A stretch of 36,144 nt of DNA from a virus (IMGVR_UViG_3300019935_000001:1-36144); one strand, 5' to 3'; shown: positions 4,735 to 26,113, counted from the first letter of the stretch. Numbers and translations: made by a program. The notes: a model not told the origin generated them from the letters alone.

Positions 4735-4756
4735 TAAGTAAGACCTTACTTATATT
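4735..4756 (+). promoter_or_regulatory. Palindromic box copy 3, upstream of major capsid gene
   Basis: TAAGTAAG-AC-CTTACTTA at 4735-4752 is a perfect dyad, with -10-like TATATT at 4751-4756. An extra TAAG unit precedes it at 4731. The strong ribosome site TTAGGAGAAG and the capsid start at 4779 lie 28 nt downstream. This is the best dyad of the family and sits ahead of what should be the most abundantly made protein. Confidence 0.7.
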
Positions 4757-19988: not shown

Positions 19989-21068
19989 ATGCAACAATAC
20001 ACATCTATCAACGGGGCTACGCTGATCACGCAGGCTCCGGGTAAGCTGATGGCGAACATCGATACCCTGCTGTCGAGCAATGAAGGTACGGTGTTCCCTA
20101 GCTCCAACAATGTGATGGGCCGGGTCTGCTACCGCAGCGACCAGAAGAAGCTGTATCTGATGACGGATGATAGTCCTGCCACCTGGAAGCTGATCTCTGA
20201 CTTGTCCAAAACCTACGTGACGTATGAAGACTGCAACACGGACTTCATCAACAAAAGCAAGGTTACCAGTTCACTGACCGACACCAGTACATCGAAGGTG
20301 GCATCAGCCAAGGCTGTGAAGACTGTCCAGGACAATCTGAACAGCCACACCACAGCATATGCCGACTTCGTTGGCCAGATCTCCAAGTCATCGGCTTCGT
20401 ACATCTTCTCCAACAACATCTCGCTGGTTCGGGATGCCGCCACCCTGACAGTCCAGGGCGGTGCAGTTGGGGCGGACAATGGCGAGCGAACGTCTGCCCT
20501 GCAACTGGGCCGTTCCAACTCCCGAGCCTTTAACGTGGTGACTCACGGCACAGGGTATACATTCTTAGGGTCAGGCGGCCTGACTTCCTCGCGTTTGCCC
20601 ACTCACAACGCCATGCGCTTTGCCTATGGATCGAACTCTGTGCTGTTTTACGGAACGGTGGATGTGAACGGCAGGCTGGATGCGAACTCCGGTCTGAATG
20701 TGAATGGCTCGACCGGCATGGATGGCAACGTGACCGTTGACGGCACCGTGGCGGTAACCGGCCAGATTTCATCGACAGGCAACATTACATCTGGCGGAAC
20801 AATCACGATGGCATCCGATGCCCGACTGAAGAGTGATATTGAAACCATTGAAGGGGCGCTGGACAAGGTAACTGGGATGCGCGGCGTGATGTACACGCTC
20901 AGGTCATCGGGCGAGCGCCGCCCTGGAGTCATTGCCGACGAGCTTGAAAAGGTACTTCCCGAGGCTGTTGATCGCTCTGGCGAATACAAGTCCGTTGCTT
21001 ACCAAAACCTGGCAGGGTTACTGATCCAGGCCATCAAAGAGCTTAATGACAAGGTGGAGGCCCGATAA
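19989..21068 (+). CDS. Tail fibre protein 1 with S74 intramolecular chaperone
   Basis: This is a trimeric fibre of 359 residues. The N-terminus (about 1-75, with GRVCYRSDQKKLYLMTDDSP at about 45-64) is shared with the next protein and is probably the attachment domain. A beta-helix-like middle is rich in Asn and Gly (VNGRLDANSGLNVNGST). From about residue 276 (SDARLKSDIE) there is a peptidase S74-type chaperone, with Ser276 and Lys281 placed as the self-cleavage residues, so the last about 84 residues should be removed after folding. Its stop overlaps the next start (TAATG). Confidence 0.85.
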   Translation: MQQYTSINGATLITQAPGKLMANIDTLLSSNEGTVFPSSNNVMGRVCYRSDQKKLYLMTDDSPATWKLISDLSKTYVTYEDCNTDFINKSKVTSSLTDTSTSKVASAKAVKTVQDNLNSHTTAYADFVGQISKSSASYIFSNNISLVRDAATLTVQGGAVGADNGERTSALQLGRSNSRAFNVVTHGTGYTFLGSGGLTSSRLPTHNAMRFAYGSNSVLFYGTVDVNGRLDANSGLNVNGSTGMDGNVTVDGTVAVTGQISSTGNITSGGTITMASDARLKSDIETIEGALDKVTGMRGVMYTLRSSGERRPGVIADELEKVLPEAVDRSGEYKSVAYQNLAGLLIQAIKELNDKVEAR

Positions 21069-22996
21069 TGGAGGCGTACCAAAATATTGCAAGTTCTGAC
21101 ACGGTAAAGGATAGCCGTAACGTTATTAACAATAATATTCTTACAGCGATCAGCCAGTCTGCTGCGACTTCGTTTCCAACCACTCATGTGCTGGCGGGCC
21201 GTACCTGCTACAGGACTGACGAGCTGATGCTGTATATCTGCAACGACGCGGACCCTCAGTCGTGGATGCCAATGTTCGACCTGGGCTCAGGTAAGTCGCC
21301 GAATGCGCAGAAGCTGGACGGGTACGACTACACCGCTTTTTTGCGCAAGGGCGACACTGCTGATCAGAATCTGGAATCCGACCGTATCACGTTGGGCGGC
21401 AGCGCTGTGGATGGCATGCGCCGCAGTACCGAAGGGGTCCATATTGAGCAGCACTCTTCCAGCTCGAAGCGGCTGTACATCAATTCCATCGGTAACGTGG
21501 ATCTACAGGCGGACTCGAACGAGAACGGGTCTGGCGGCGTAATCCGGTTCCATGTTGGTGCCAACCAGCTGGCCTATATCGACTCCAGTTACTTCACCTT
21601 TGCAGGCAAGTCGGGCTACGTCAAAGCCCGATTTGGGGCCGCCGGTTCTGACGACACATTCGTGGAGTTTCGGGACAACACTTCCGATACCTGGCGCCAC
21701 TTTGGCTTCGACGCCTCGGCTCAGGACTGGTACGCAGAGATCCCAGGCAATCGCTGGAAGCTGTGGCACCAGGGTAATGATGCTAACCTGGTGAAGAAGG
21801 ACCAGAAGAATGTGATTGTTGTCCCGGACTCCGTAGCCAACCAGACGATATATGCCAACAGTATAGAGATGTACCCTACAGGATCGGATACGCTAACTGC
21901 CGACCACTCTCATATAGGGAATCGAGTATATATCGCCTCAGATGCTTCAGGCGGGGATGCTGTAAACGAGCACCGCCTCTACGGTTCTTACACATATGTG
22001 GTCGCCAATGGGGACTCGGACATTGTTTACGGTACTTACAGCTACGGTCGCAGCAATGTGCCAGCTGGCGAGTCCTGCTCCGACGTTAGAGGAGGCTACA
22101 ACGTCGGTGTCGGAGCTGGCGAGGGCACTGTTAGCAATATTTATGGCTGCGTGAACTACGGCATCTCATCTAACATAGGTCCGGTTGGCAGCCTATATGG
22201 GTCTCACAACCGGGCTCAAGTTACCTCGGTAGCAACCGGATCTGTGACTTCGGCATACGGGGTCTACTCAGAGGTGGAGGTTGATGCGGCAAGCGTCAAC
22301 AACATCTATGGGGTTCGATCCGTCATAGACATTGATGGTGGAGCCACCGACAACGCTTACTTGTTTCACGGTGAATATCAAGGTTCCCTCTCTCCCGATT
22401 CCTACGGGATCTACATCGACTCTAACGTTGAAAACCATCTGGGGGGCAACCTACTGGTAGAGAATGGAATCCAAGTTAATGGCTCCGATTGGAACCGCAA
22501 CTTCCGCATTCGTGGTCCTGCTCCATGTATCTATTTTGATCAGGACGATGACTCAAATGACAAGGCAATGCTGGGCCTAAATGGCGAAGAGTTGTACCTA
22601 CTGGCAGACAAAAATGCAGACGGGGTATTTGATTCCACCTCTCCGTTCCCGATGCAGGTCAATATCAACACCGGTGTGGCTCTGTTCAAAGGATCAGTTG
22701 GTCAGGCATCCGATGAACGCCTGAAGGAAGATATTCAGCGTATTCTGAACCCGGTCGAGAAGATTCGACAGCTGGGTGGTTACACGTATACCCGTATTGA
22801 CACCGGTGAGCGCCAGACAGGTGTACTGGCTCAGGAAGTGAAACAGGTGTTGCCAGAAGCTGTGCGCCAGTTCGCAGATGACGGAATGATGACCGTTGCG
22901 TATGGGGAAATGATTGGCCTGGTTCTGGAAGGCGTTCGGGCACTGGACGAGCGGATCACCGCTTTGGAGGAGATAAATGTCACTCAAGGCCAATAA
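21068..22996 (+). CDS. Tail fibre protein 2 with S74 intramolecular chaperone
   Basis: This 642-residue paralogue of the preceding fibre shares an N-terminal module (GRTCYRTDELMLYICNDADP) and an S74 C-terminus starting at Ser548 (SDERLKEDIQ, Lys553), predicted to cut itself off. Between them, about residues 255-480 hold repeats with YG pairs (RLYGSYTYV, DIVYGTYSYG, NIYGCVNYG, SLYGSHN, SAYGVYSEV, NIYGVRSV) spaced about 15-30 residues, suggesting a beta-solenoid shaft. That part uses the ATA isoleucine codon more than its surroundings. The last residues form a helical region (LVLEGVRALDERITALEE). Confidence 0.86.
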   Translation: MEAYQNIASSDTVKDSRNVINNNILTAISQSAATSFPTTHVLAGRTCYRTDELMLYICNDADPQSWMPMFDLGSGKSPNAQKLDGYDYTAFLRKGDTADQNLESDRITLGGSAVDGMRRSTEGVHIEQHSSSSKRLYINSIGNVDLQADSNENGSGGVIRFHVGANQLAYIDSSYFTFAGKSGYVKARFGAAGSDDTFVEFRDNTSDTWRHFGFDASAQDWYAEIPGNRWKLWHQGNDANLVKKDQKNVIVVPDSVANQTIYANSIEMYPTGSDTLTADHSHIGNRVYIASDASGGDAVNEHRLYGSYTYVVANGDSDIVYGTYSYGRSNVPAGESCSDVRGGYNVGVGAGEGTVSNIYGCVNYGISSNIGPVGSLYGSHNRAQVTSVATGSVTSAYGVYSEVEVDAASVNNIYGVRSVIDIDGGATDNAYLFHGEYQGSLSPDSYGIYIDSNVENHLGGNLLVENGIQVNGSDWNRNFRIRGPAPCIYFDQDDDSNDKAMLGLNGEELYLLADKNADGVFDSTSPFPMQVNINTGVALFKGSVGQASDERLKEDIQRILNPVEKIRQLGGYTYTRIDTGERQTGVLAQEVKQVLPEAVRQFADDGMMTVAYGEMIGLVLEGVRALDERITALEEINVTQGQ

Positions 22997-23240
22997 CACC
23001 GAGGTTATCGGTGCTGATGGAAAGATTCACTGGGGCCGTCTGAAGTCAGTACCCGGTCTCGTGCAGGATGGGCAGATCCGAACCCAGGAGCCACCGTACC
23101 AGTACAACTGTGAGGGCTCCGGTACTTCGATCACCTACCGGACCACCGGTATGGAGTACATGCCCGGTAATAAGTACCGACTTCGCCAGATCAAGGTGAA
23201 GTCCACTTCTAACTGCAACTGTAACTGCGGGAATTTCTAA
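22977..23240 (+). CDS. Small tail-operon protein with Asn/Cys-alternating C-terminus
   Basis: I do not recognise this 87-residue family. It overlaps the fibre gene by 20 bp and has a strong ribosome site (GGAGGAGAT), so it is made with the fibres. Residues 10-75 look like short beta strands with Cys45 in the middle. The end is striking: N79-C80-N81-C82-N83-C84-G-N-F. This is either a metal site or a substrate for the oxygenase and radical SAM enzyme encoded 0.8 kb downstream. The 66 residues ahead of the Cys tail would serve as a leader if it is a precursor. The modification role is inferred, not shown. Confidence 0.55.
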   Translation: MSLKANNTEVIGADGKIHWGRLKSVPGLVQDGQIRTQEPPYQYNCEGSGTSITYRTTGMEYMPGNKYRLRQIKVKSTSNCNCNCGNF

Positions 23241-23971
23241 TGCTTCAGGTCGCGGTAACACCCGTAAAGGGCTATGGGAAAGGCGTCCGGTTATCGACTG
23301 ACGGTAACGGTCTGCTGGTTGAGGCGGTTGACGAAAACGGGGATCTGACCGCCAGTAACTATTTGAGCGAAGCGATTGTGCGTGGCTCGATGGGCCAGAA
23401 GGAGATCTCTGACGCCTCGAATATCTATGTGCGTGTACGGGACGATGGATCGGTTCATAGCATGTACAACAAGTTGGTGAATAGCTTCGATAGCAAGGAC
23501 TCCGGGTTCGTGCACATTGCAAAAATGGGCCATAAGGTGGGCGGGCAGATTCACATCCCCTACGCCGACAGTCCGCTGAGCGAGTGGGGGCTGCGCGTGA
23601 ACTATGATGCCGACGCTGGCGCAATTGCGGGGCCAGGTGTTGAGCTGATTGAGGTTCCACTGGGGGAGGATTCGTTCCATGCGCTTGCAAATCAAAACCT
23701 CCCCACGCTCAGGGTTTCTGATGTGGAAACTCAGGGGGATCACTATCGTGTGACGGTTCAAGTTGTGCGTTCAGGGAACGACGACAAGCGCTCTGGTGTA
23801 GCTATCTACGCGAAGAGTGATTCAGGATACATTGCTCAGAGAAAACTGCTCACAAACGAACTGGGGCGGGCACAGTTTAAGTGTGCCAGGTTACTGCTGG
23901 AGGACTCTGAAGAGTTCGTTGCAGAGTTTGGCTTCAAATTTTTGTCCAACATCACCAGTGTAAGCCTTTAA
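23240..23971 (+). CDS. Unknown tail-operon protein, possibly fibre-associated
   Basis: This 243-residue protein of unknown family is coupled to the Cys-tail gene by TAATG. It appears mainly beta (MLQVAVTPVKGYGKGVRLSTDG; VTVQVVRSGNDDKRSGVAIYAK) with a Gly-rich middle. Two domains are likely: about 1-145 and about 150-243, the latter immunoglobulin-like with an ending typical of secreted beta sandwiches (AEFGFKFLSNITSVSL). It has one cysteine (KCARLL). It could be an adhesin, a fibre chaperone or a partner of the Cys-tail protein. It is the last gene before box copy 8. Confidence 0.4.
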   Translation: MLQVAVTPVKGYGKGVRLSTDGNGLLVEAVDENGDLTASNYLSEAIVRGSMGQKEISDASNIYVRVRDDGSVHSMYNKLVNSFDSKDSGFVHIAKMGHKVGGQIHIPYADSPLSEWGLRVNYDADAGAIAGPGVELIEVPLGEDSFHALANQNLPTLRVSDVETQGDHYRVTVQVVRSGNDDKRSGVAIYAKSDSGYIAQRKLLTNELGRAQFKCARLLLEDSEEFVAEFGFKFLSNITSVSL

Positions 23972-23985
23972 TCGCCCTGCTATAG

Positions 23986-24007
23986 TAAGTATCTGCTTAC
24001 TTAGCAA
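23986..24007 (+). promoter_or_regulatory. Palindromic box copy 8, upstream of modification genes
   Basis: TAAGTATC-TG-CTTACTTA lies at 23986-24003. The right arm is intact and the left arm is partly altered. The hexamer TAGCAA at 24002-24007 is a weak -10, and the likely ribosome site AAGG overlaps it, only 15 nt before the ATG. The transcription start may therefore lie further upstream, or this copy may act only as an operator. Confidence 0.5.
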
Positions 24008-24016
24008 GGTATAGAA

Positions 24017-24814
24017 ATGCTTACTCTATTGGATGCAGCAAAACAGAACCTGGACTGGGGAGGCGCAACCGAAAGGTTGAACCCGGCCAGGTTCGATCCC
24101 AACCTGACAATTCCGAACCTGGATACGCGCGGCCTTTCCGAAGCGGTCACGGCTCTGACTGAATCCCAACCTTGCATTCCATGGCAATCCGCTCGGAACT
24201 CCAGCCTGTACGGCATGGGCCTGACATATGACCCGTCCAGTGGAAAGCCATACCTCGATTGCTTTGGCGATCCTTACTACCTTCGGTACTCCACCGATGA
24301 ATACTTCGATGCTGTAGAGGCTGACGACAAGCAGAGGGTTAGAGGTGGCTATCTGGACTGCCTACGGTACGACACCCTGACTCCAGCGGTATATGCCAAT
24401 CCACGACTGAGGCAGCTGTTCGAGAGCTTCCGGTTGCCTGTAGTGCGCAGCTCGTTGCGAATCATTGACGGCAATGCTGTTAGCCCATCCGCACCTTCGG
24501 GAGGCTACCACTGCGACGAGAGTCCTTTCGATTGCCTCCGGCTAAATATCTGCGTGGACACAAACGACAGTTTTGGCCTGCAGTATGAAGGGCGACCGCC
24601 AATGTTCCTGTCCGCTGGCGACCACCGGATCGTGATGACTCACAAGCGGCACCGGGCGTTCGTCGTTCGCCAGTCTGATTTTCAGCGAATCCATATTGTG
24701 ATCAGCGTGGTGCCATGGCTGAAGAAAACCCAGAGCGGCAACTGGGTACCAAACGAATACTTCGGGGAAATCCACCCCTTCGATATGGTCAAAGAGGGCC
24801 TTCTTCTGAAATGA
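24017..24814 (+). CDS. Putative Fe(II)/2-oxoglutarate oxygenase, aspartyl/asparaginyl hydroxylase-like
   Basis: This 265-residue protein probably hydroxylates a residue in a protein substrate, using iron and 2-oxoglutarate. The double-stranded beta-helix core is in the second half: His165 and Asp167 (GGYHCDESPFDCLRLNICV) are followed by AGDHRIVMTHKRHRAFVV with His212 as the distal ligand, and Arg224 (DFQRIHIVISV) placed to bind 2-oxoglutarate. The pattern is closest to aspartyl/asparaginyl beta-hydroxylases, though those often lack the acidic ligand. The N-terminal about 140 residues are not recognised. The stop overlaps the radical SAM start as ATGA, so the two are co-translated. Confidence 0.65.
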   Translation: MLTLLDAAKQNLDWGGATERLNPARFDPNLTIPNLDTRGLSEAVTALTESQPCIPWQSARNSSLYGMGLTYDPSSGKPYLDCFGDPYYLRYSTDEYFDAVEADDKQRVRGGYLDCLRYDTLTPAVYANPRLRQLFESFRLPVVRSSLRIIDGNAVSPSAPSGGYHCDESPFDCLRLNICVDTNDSFGLQYEGRPPMFLSAGDHRIVMTHKRHRAFVVRQSDFQRIHIVISVVPWLKKTQSGNWVPNEYFGEIHPFDMVKEGLLLK

Positions 24815-26091
24815 AATACCAACTCAAGATGGAGGCCCCTGATGGCCGCCATGAATATCTCGACTTCGATTCAAAGCTGGGTACGCTGACACGCAATGGT
24901 GTGCCGTTCGATACCTCAGATCTGCGCCAGTCCAGCCCCAACCCAGAGCAGATTCACAAGGTAAGTCCGGATAGCCCAGGCCGAAAGGTGAGCGCACCGA
25001 AGGTTTTGAAAATCCAGCTGGGGCTGAAGTGCAATTACTCTTGCTCCTACTGCAACCAGGCCTCAGAGGTACCCGGTGCCGTGGTTACCAACAAGCGTGA
25101 TGCCGTTGAGTTTCTGGCAAACCTGGACAGCTGGCTGCAGGAGCCTCCGGAGAGAATTGAGCTGTGGGGTGGCGAACCGCTGGTGTACCTGTCGAAGCTG
25201 AAGGTTCTGGTGCCAGAGATCCGCGATCGATTCCCGGATGCCCAGATCGGCATGATTACGAATGGCAGCCTGCTGAAAGATGAGACGGTTGACTTCATTA
25301 TCGATCACCAGATCAACGTCGGTATGTCACATGACGCATATGGCCAGGCACAGCGCGGAGATGATCCCCTGCAGGATGATCGGGTGCTGGCAGCAGTGCA
25401 CCGCCTGGTTGCAGAGCATGGCGATCGCTTCTCTATCAATTCGGTGATCACCGGTTCGAGCCTGGATATGGCCTCAACCATTCGGTACTTCCAGGCCATT
25501 TTCGGGCCAGGCGTTCAGGTGCTGTTTGAAGACGTTGTGAACTACCACGACGATGGCGCCATTGATTCTAACCAGATGACGAGCCAGCAGCTGGCCGAGC
25601 TGTCTGACAATGTGTTCTATGGTGTGGCCGGTGACAATCTGCTGGAGAGCCCAGGCGTCCAGTCAAAGATCGTTCGCTTCCTGGCTGGCCTGAATAGTGG
25701 CTTCTCCATGGATCAGGCGTATTCCAAATGCGGAATGGATCGGCCAGACCATATTGCGTGCGACCTGGCCGGCAACATCGTCACTTGTCAGAACGTGGGC
25801 GCCAGCGGCAGACATCTGGTTGGCAGCGTATACAAGATGGAGGGTGCCCGACTGACCAGCTCCCTGCACTTCTCACATCGAAAGAACTGCCAGGACTGCC
25901 CGGTGCTTCGCCTTTGTGGCGGCGGCTGCATGTACCTTCACGGCGATCACTTCCAGGCCAGCTGCAAGGCTCTTTACCAGTACAACATGGGTTATCTGCG
26001 AGCAGCACTGTACCTGTTGACAGGTCTGGCCCTGGTTGAAGTGACCCAGATCGGTCAGCCATCATTAATTCCTTGCATTTCTTCCGAATAA
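24811..26091 (+). CDS. Radical SAM/SPASM peptide-modifying enzyme
   Basis: I choose ATG 24811 (ATGA overlap with the upstream gene) over the in-frame 24715, giving 426 residues. The radical SAM cluster motif is CNYSCSYC (Cys74, Cys78, Cys81), and WGGEP at 119-123 is the usual second motif. The C-terminus is a full SPASM domain: Cys307-x13-Gly-x4-Cys326, then Cys360-x2-Cys363-x5-Cys369-x3-Cys373 and Cys385, enough for two more [4Fe-4S] clusters. SPASM enzymes typically modify peptides or proteins (sulfatase maturation, thioether and C-C crosslinks). The target is unknown; the Cys-tail protein upstream is the obvious candidate. It is oxygen-sensitive by nature. Confidence 0.92.
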   Translation: MKYQLKMEAPDGRHEYLDFDSKLGTLTRNGVPFDTSDLRQSSPNPEQIHKVSPDSPGRKVSAPKVLKIQLGLKCNYSCSYCNQASEVPGAVVTNKRDAVEFLANLDSWLQEPPERIELWGGEPLVYLSKLKVLVPEIRDRFPDAQIGMITNGSLLKDETVDFIIDHQINVGMSHDAYGQAQRGDDPLQDDRVLAAVHRLVAEHGDRFSINSVITGSSLDMASTIRYFQAIFGPGVQVLFEDVVNYHDDGAIDSNQMTSQQLAELSDNVFYGVAGDNLLESPGVQSKIVRFLAGLNSGFSMDQAYSKCGMDRPDHIACDLAGNIVTCQNVGASGRHLVGSVYKMEGARLTSSLHFSHRKNCQDCPVLRLCGGGCMYLHGDHFQASCKALYQYNMGYLRAALYLLTGLALVEVTQIGQPSLIPCISSE

Positions 26092-26113
26092 TAAGTAAGG
26101 ACTGACTTTTATA
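26092..26113 (+). promoter_or_regulatory. Palindromic box copy 9, upstream of lysis genes
   Basis: TAAGTAAG-GA-CTGACTTT lies at 26092-26109, beginning directly after the radical SAM stop codon. The -10-like element is TTTATA at 26108-26113 (or TATATA two bases on). It would drive holin, endolysin and the second holin-like gene. Confidence 0.65.

Follow-up and report, generated by a model that had tools for sequence, protein, structure and literature searches.

The window analysed here covers bases 1 to 36,144 of a virus record 102,731 bases long and contains a four-gene cassette next to its fibre genes. This cassette is best read as a RiPP-like system for the maturation of the cysteine tail of a phage tail-region protein, with both the chemistry and the role in the virion being inferred. 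On genomic grounds we strongly infer that an alternating X-Cys tail is the substrate, and it is highly probable, judged from sequence analysis, that the radical SAM/SPASM enzyme of the cassette would modify it. The original prediction had assigned the modification of a Cys/Asn tail to two enzymes, this one and a 2OG oxygenase. For the radical SAM enzyme this is supported by co-occurrence in both directions; the oxygenase was found to be only an accessory, present at about half of the loci.

Two fibre genes are located upstream of the cassette, the second of which carries a C-terminal S74 chaperone domain. Four co-directional genes follow 3' of the fibres, all on the + strand: an 87-aa protein as the putative substrate (22977..23240), a conserved cassette partner of 243 aa here named P2 (23240..23971), a 2OG-Fe(II) oxygenase-like protein of 265 aa (24017..24814) and the radical SAM/SPASM enzyme of 426 aa (24811..26091). 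Holin and endolysin genes are found downstream of the enzyme unit. The start of the P2 gene overlaps the stop codon of the 87-aa ORF by one base. The radical SAM gene overlaps the oxygenase stop, its ATG at 24811 lying inside the sequence ATGA, in agreement with the overlap from which translational coupling had been proposed. A longer ORF from 24715 was considered as well and is an unlikely start of the gene; ATG 24811 is preferred.

A box of 17 bases, TAAGTANNNNCTKACTT, is present in the window in 8 exact copies on the + strand; with up to one mismatch allowed, 0.02 would be expected. The enzyme unit has one copy ahead of it (23986..24002, + strand) and the next one directly after it, before the lysis genes (26092..26108, + strand). 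Since these copies lie directly before the oxygenase and directly after the radical SAM gene, the two enzymes form a unit of their own, as had been suggested. We infer that the box is a promoter, putatively a phage promoter element. Sigma-70-type promoters were not found in the cassette region, leaving the repeated box as the better candidate.

The 87-aa protein consists of a short N-terminal module (MSLKANNTEVIGADGKIHWGRLK) and a C-terminal tail, and its ORF indeed terminates in SNCNCNCGNF, the Asn-Cys end that had been described. The DNA for the core of this tail is located at 23211..23227 on the + strand; AAYTGYAAYTGYAAYTG has this single exact occurrence in the window (0.00 expected in shuffles) and in the whole 102.7-kb record. 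The protein did not match any family in Pfam, PHROG and NCBIfam profile searches, and no matches among named phages were obtained when the 87-aa protein, P2 and the oxygenase were used as tblastn queries. Back-translated single-sequence scans with the 87-aa protein and the oxygenase did not find relatives either; the relatives of both were placed by neighbourhood clustering. A homologue is the NC-tailed protein of 83 aa at L046:5963-6211; compared without their tails, the two score 10.5 SD higher than shuffled sequences. That the 87-aa protein is a virion component is inferred, as virion proteomics are not available.

The radical SAM/SPASM enzyme possesses all the features that had been claimed for it, namely CNYSCSYC, WGGEP and an intact SPASM cysteine set. 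Membership of the radical SAM superfamily is established by PF04055 (33.9 bits with a cut-off of 29.5) together with the CX3CX2C motif, whose cysteines C74, C78 and C81 are kept in 99-100% of 80 relatives. For the SPASM subfamily we required TIGR04085 above its cut-off and the pattern CX9-15GX4C...CX2CX5CX3C...C. Both were fulfilled (30.3 versus 27 bits; C307-x13-G321-x4-C326, C360x2C363x5C369x3C373 and C385), and the seven SPASM cysteines at positions 307, 326, 360, 363, 369, 373 and 385 are present in 97-100% of the 80 relatives. Additionally, the enzyme matches phrog_1802 (E 5e-50).

Dozens of NCBIfam peptide-maturase models matched the enzyme, each far under its cut-off. The equivalog tests were not met for PapB (62.8 bits, cut-off 340), SCIFF (50.7, cut-off 425), Nif11 (62.7, cut-off 518.7) and the anaerobic sulfatase maturase (35.8, cut-off 349). 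In a scan of 27 diverse members, PapB (ranthipeptide) and Nif11 maturases ranked among the best-scoring NCBIfam models every time. The nearest solved sequences are 8vpo, 5wgg, which we take to be the SCIFF maturase CteB, and the anaerobic sulfatase maturases 4k37 and 4k36. Because the enzyme stays far below every named maturase cut-off, a bond type cannot be transferred from any of these.

The link between enzyme and tail was analyzed from both sides. IMG/VR was scanned with the radical SAM alignment, resulting in at least 562 relatives, of which 80 loci were kept. Among the matches listed these comprised 47 non-redundant loci, 38 of them with at least 5 kb upstream, and an alternating-Cys protein was found at 36 of these 38. 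One of the 36 (L317) rests on a weak downstream match and possibly should not be counted. With redundant loci included the number was 63 of 67, again among the matches listed. Enzyme homologues without a Cys/Asn-tailed neighbour had been set beforehand as the observation that would refute the proposal; with 36 of 38 having such a neighbour this criterion was not met. No obvious tail was seen at the L296 group and L015, while the apparent exception L294 carries a small protein ending in CDCANCSMK. In a pattern test of 70 loci the motif was detected on the sense strand in 64, on the antisense strand in one and in the reversed sequence in none (among the matches listed). A chance origin of the motif is ruled out by the antisense and reversed-sequence controls and by the shuffles with 0.00 expected.

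Starting from the motif, DNA encoding NCNCNCNC was found at no fewer than 120 viral loci and at least 117 loci in bacterial genomes. As comparable cases we considered those with NCNCNCNC not more than 25 residues from the stop and with 3.5 kb or more of sequence following downstream. The enzyme was encoded downstream on the same strand at 59 of 60 such viral loci among the matches listed, with a median gap of about 1.3 kb. In bacterial genomes, in contrast, it was beside the motif in none of 7 comparable cases and in none of the at least 117 loci (59/60 versus 0/7, Fisher p 9e-9). The p-values for co-occurrence are only indicative, as the counts were made among the matches listed and include related contigs. 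After removal of similar enzymes 52 independent loci remained, and 49 of them had an NC-type tail (among the matches listed). Most of this set had been chosen for the tail, so the enzyme-first figures are the unbiased ones. Altogether the test for a RiPP-like linkage was met, i.e. a maturase consistently linked to a ribosomally made substrate whose core motif is conserved.

The tails were compared in 64 non-redundant proteins with 334 X-Cys units among the matches listed. The residue preceding Cys was Asn in 266 units (80%), Ala in 29, Asp in 19 and Gln in 8. Nothing follows the X-Cys run in 30 of the 64 proteins and at most 17 residues follow in 58 (among the matches listed). Five of the six remaining, non-redundant carriers (L003, L016, L017, L037 and L129) have a Hint (self-cleaving) domain of the Hint/intein-like autoprocessing type 3' of the run. 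The support for this is above the Pfam cut-off in L016, below it in L129, and consists of a Hint-like start motif alone in L003, L017 and L037. These domains suggest cleavage in some relatives, which could expose the same type of C-terminus. The 87-aa protein of the window lacks Hint, its tail running to the stop codon.

The carriers vary widely in length, from proteins of less than 100 aa up to long ones that match tail fibres strongly, such as a tail fibre of 616 aa (L032; phrog_5073, E 2e-48). Furthermore, the N-terminus of the window's 359-aa fibre (19989..21068, + strand) is related (31% identity over 138 aa, E 2e-11) to that of an Achromobacter phage JWF protein that bears both an NC tail and a Hint domain, and NC tails are thereby connected with the tail-fibre apparatus.

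The gene between the tail protein and the oxygenase had been listed as one of unknown function. It is present as described, but P2 has to be regarded as a conserved member of the cassette, because its family occurs at 43 of the 52 independent radical SAM loci among the matches listed, P2 not having been selected for. In the AlphaFold2 model (pLDDT 96) residues 154-243 are predicted to form an Ig/Big-1-like domain resembling adhesin and phage Chi neck domains. No fold match was found for the N-terminal part, and a search of the P2 sequence profile against solved structures found none. Over the whole length only uncharacterised phage proteins matched the fold. P2 is probably a virion or docking partner.

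The oxygenase carries H165, D167, H212 and R224 exactly as claimed, and none of these residues varies across 11 homologues of 23-40% identity. Its family has no match in Pfam. The model (pLDDT 85) resembles the non-heme hydroxylase 7v4p (Z 15.1, rmsd 2.5, 164 aligned) and peptide-bound AspH (Z 11.7, rmsd 3.9, 166 aligned). With the HxD...H triad and the distal Arg placed in a predicted double-stranded beta-helix, sequence and model together satisfy the test for the 2OG-Fe(II) superfamily. At least one of four 2OG families, three of them backed by Pfam, was present at 28 of the 52 independent loci among the matches listed, 2OG genes being unselected. Most of them are no more than 2.5 kb away from the radical SAM gene, and at some loci three 2OG oxygenases are found in a row. 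As several unrelated families are involved and only about half of the loci have one, the oxygenases are accessory, which leaves the radical SAM enzyme as the core modifier. A signature of Asn as the oxygenase target was looked for in the composition of the tails and not seen: Asn makes up 82% with and 76% without an oxygenase, so that Asn is not singled out.

The loci of the two Achromobacter phages JWF and 2-1 have a tail and a radical SAM gene, while neither P2 nor an oxygenase was detected there. The gene product gp029 of JWF, considered as an oxygenase by its position, belongs to a separate family without an oxygenase match. The distribution of the cassette genes gives an order of indispensability, with the tail and the radical SAM enzyme followed by P2 and then by the oxygenases.

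A possible course of events can be outlined. The fibre operon would yield the 87-aa protein carrying the C-terminal acceptor NCNCNC. The radical SAM/SPASM enzyme, expressed separately from the boxed unit, would act on this acceptor. Where present, the AspH-like 2OG oxygenase may add oxygen to the tail; hydroxylation of Asn is inferred as the most plausible added modification. The likeliest radical SAM chemistry would be an oxidative crosslink in which the sulphur of a Cys is joined to a carbon atom of the residue next to it, i.e. a thioether. At the end of a fibre or of the tail tip, such bonds could make the exposed, thiol-rich tail rigid and stable to redox changes, without free thiols. A thioether is favoured because the acceptor is dense in Cys and the nearest profiles include thioether formers. 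In the absence of a mass spectrum or a structure the chances for this bond type are about even.

SPASM enzymes are also known to oxidise Cys or to form carbon-carbon bonds, and radical SAM enzymes more widely epimerise residues. The same substrate may accordingly undergo another chemistry, either alternating D/L epimerisation or a Cys oxidation of the formylglycine/thioaldehyde type, which we regard as less likely and still worth serious consideration. A helix of alternating D and L residues would fit well with the strict alternation seen in the tail; the epimerase YydG, however, is a weaker profile match and aligns over the radical SAM core only. For Cys oxidation one may point to 4k37 and 4k36 among the nearest solved relatives and to the annotation of the JWF enzyme as an anaerobic sulfatase-maturating enzyme, whereas the sulfatase-maturase model reaches only 35.8 of 349 bits and the tail lacks a CxPxR-type site. 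Neither objection makes the respective chemistry impossible.

Two further explanations do without a modified tail. The NC tail could stay unmodified as a ligand for a metal, an Fe-S cluster or disulfides, with the radical SAM enzyme and the oxygenase acting on P2 or another protein of the operon. Alternating Cys can bind metal, and P2, found at 43/52 loci among the matches listed, falls only a little short of the tail in its conservation within the cassette. Nevertheless, we consider this improbable, given that P2 was not detected at loci such as those of JWF and 2-1, where tail and enzyme persist, and shows neither a conserved Cys-rich segment nor any other invariant stretch that could serve as acceptor. 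It is also conceivable that an auxiliary radical SAM gene, viperin-like or metabolic, came to lie at a fibre hotspot by coincidence and is unrelated to the Cys tail. The host-recognition cluster of pelagimyophages, as far as the parts of the source available to us go, holds radical SAM cassettes without a functional link (PMC7029224). Such a coincidence is contradicted by the two-way co-occurrence with its strand and sequence controls and by the 52 independent loci (among the matches listed). Moreover, the SPASM domain is kept throughout, and viperin structures, like YydG, match over the radical SAM core only. Hardly any weight remains for this explanation, and modification of the tail by the radical SAM enzyme is the reading we retain.

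Several known systems resemble the cassette in part. The SCIFF/ranthipeptide maturases (CteB, 5wgg; PapB, NF047865) likewise combine a radical SAM domain with a seven-Cys SPASM domain, and their genes adjoin a Cys-rich ribosomal substrate. Their substrate, however, is a small leader/core peptide and not the strict X-Cys C-terminus of a phage tail protein, and the phage enzyme scores far below their equivalog cut-offs. Anaerobic sulfatase-maturating enzymes (4k37) have the SPASM architecture and modify a Cys of a full-length protein, but at a single site instead of a repeat acceptor. AspH acts on Asp or Asn between cysteines. It and related 2OG hydroxylases share the predicted double-stranded beta-helix fold and HxD...H...R with the window oxygenase; at about 10% identity the resemblance to AspH is one of fold only.

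In pelagimyophages, radical SAM genes have been described beside tail fibres in a hypervariable host-recognition cluster, and an aspartyl/asparaginyl beta-hydroxylase was reported as core (PMC7029224). In the accessible portion of that paper these cassettes are linked neither to an Asn-Cys tail nor to protein maturation. A search of full-text literature, with subscription papers and bioRxiv outside its scope, gave nothing on NC-tailed phage proteins, and prior work is not excluded.

Peptide natural products and a small number of enzymes are the settings in which radical SAM maturases are known. While peptide maturation by radical SAM enzymes is thus established, the setting in phage tails is new as far as the literature was searched. 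With at least 562 candidate stretches encoding a relative in one viral collection, such maturases appear to accompany phage tail modules recurrently as an accessory. Should the tails be modified, this would be an unrecognised way of finishing the surface of a virus particle, and many environmental phages would carry a post-translationally built surface that is missed by sequence-based structure prediction, with consequences for host recognition, virion stability and structural annotation. That the matured tail contacts the host is a guess from its location. We only tentatively propose, with doubts outweighing confidence, that there may be a new class of virion tips finished by chemical modification, namely alternating X-Cys C-termini that dedicated radical SAM/SPASM enzymes and oxygenases mature. 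Their modified repeat, either a ladder of thioethers or a helix of alternating D and L residues, would contact or enter the host envelope, and they would have arisen on many unrelated fibre proteins in many lineages of tailed phages.

For peptide-crosslinking chemistry the loci provide a large and naturally varied set of paired enzymes and putative substrates with a very short and simple acceptor, the X-Cys repeats. Among named phages only the Achromobacter phages JWF and 2-1 possess a close relative of the enzyme, the annotation being that of a radical SAM or an anaerobic sulfatase-maturating protein. As JWF is an isolated phage, the system is directly testable there.

The 17-base box TAAGTANNNNCTKACTT is repeated on the plus strand of the window at positions 4735, 5690, 6967, 8789, 18404, 23986, 26092 and 29055, with a degenerate copy at 2176. 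Near the cassette that encodes the NC-tailed protein, P2, the oxygenase and the radical SAM/SPASM enzyme, the copies lie in front of gene units and look like a promoter family specific to the phage.

Among the viral loci compared with the cassette, a Hint-like start motif followed the Cys run immediately or after a short gap in L016:6772-8223, L017:6838-8280 and L003:6373-7227 as well as in L037 (275 aa), L129, L258, L281, L289 and L290. The C-terminus of the Cys tail may be generated or activated through autocleavage, a logic comparable to that of hedgehog. A further family of 230-240 aa (cluster 8; L016:8210-8932 and relatives in 12 loci) had no Pfam match; in loci resembling Achromobacter phage JWF its gene was located ahead of the radical SAM gene.

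A 543-kb contig carried a tandem array of five radical SAM genes (L015:6668-13075) without a nearby Asn-Cys tail. The radical SAM homologue L002:1718-3016 had Ser at the third cluster Cys position (CNYSCSYS), representing either an inactive copy or a sequence error. A second, weak radical SAM match elsewhere in the window's full phage record (G000:C1:69011-69313; 15.9 bits) fell below the cut-off.

Long Lys-Cys repeats (KCKCKC...) replaced Asn-Cys in 235-264-aa proteins of L302, L309 and L321; in these loci the radical SAM gene lay 6-7.5 kb further downstream. The phages of L060, L075, L082, L114 and L131 each carried three consecutive small NC-tailed paralogues, as if offering several different tips; these paralogues shared the N-terminus GNGxxTFGDGTxLxS.
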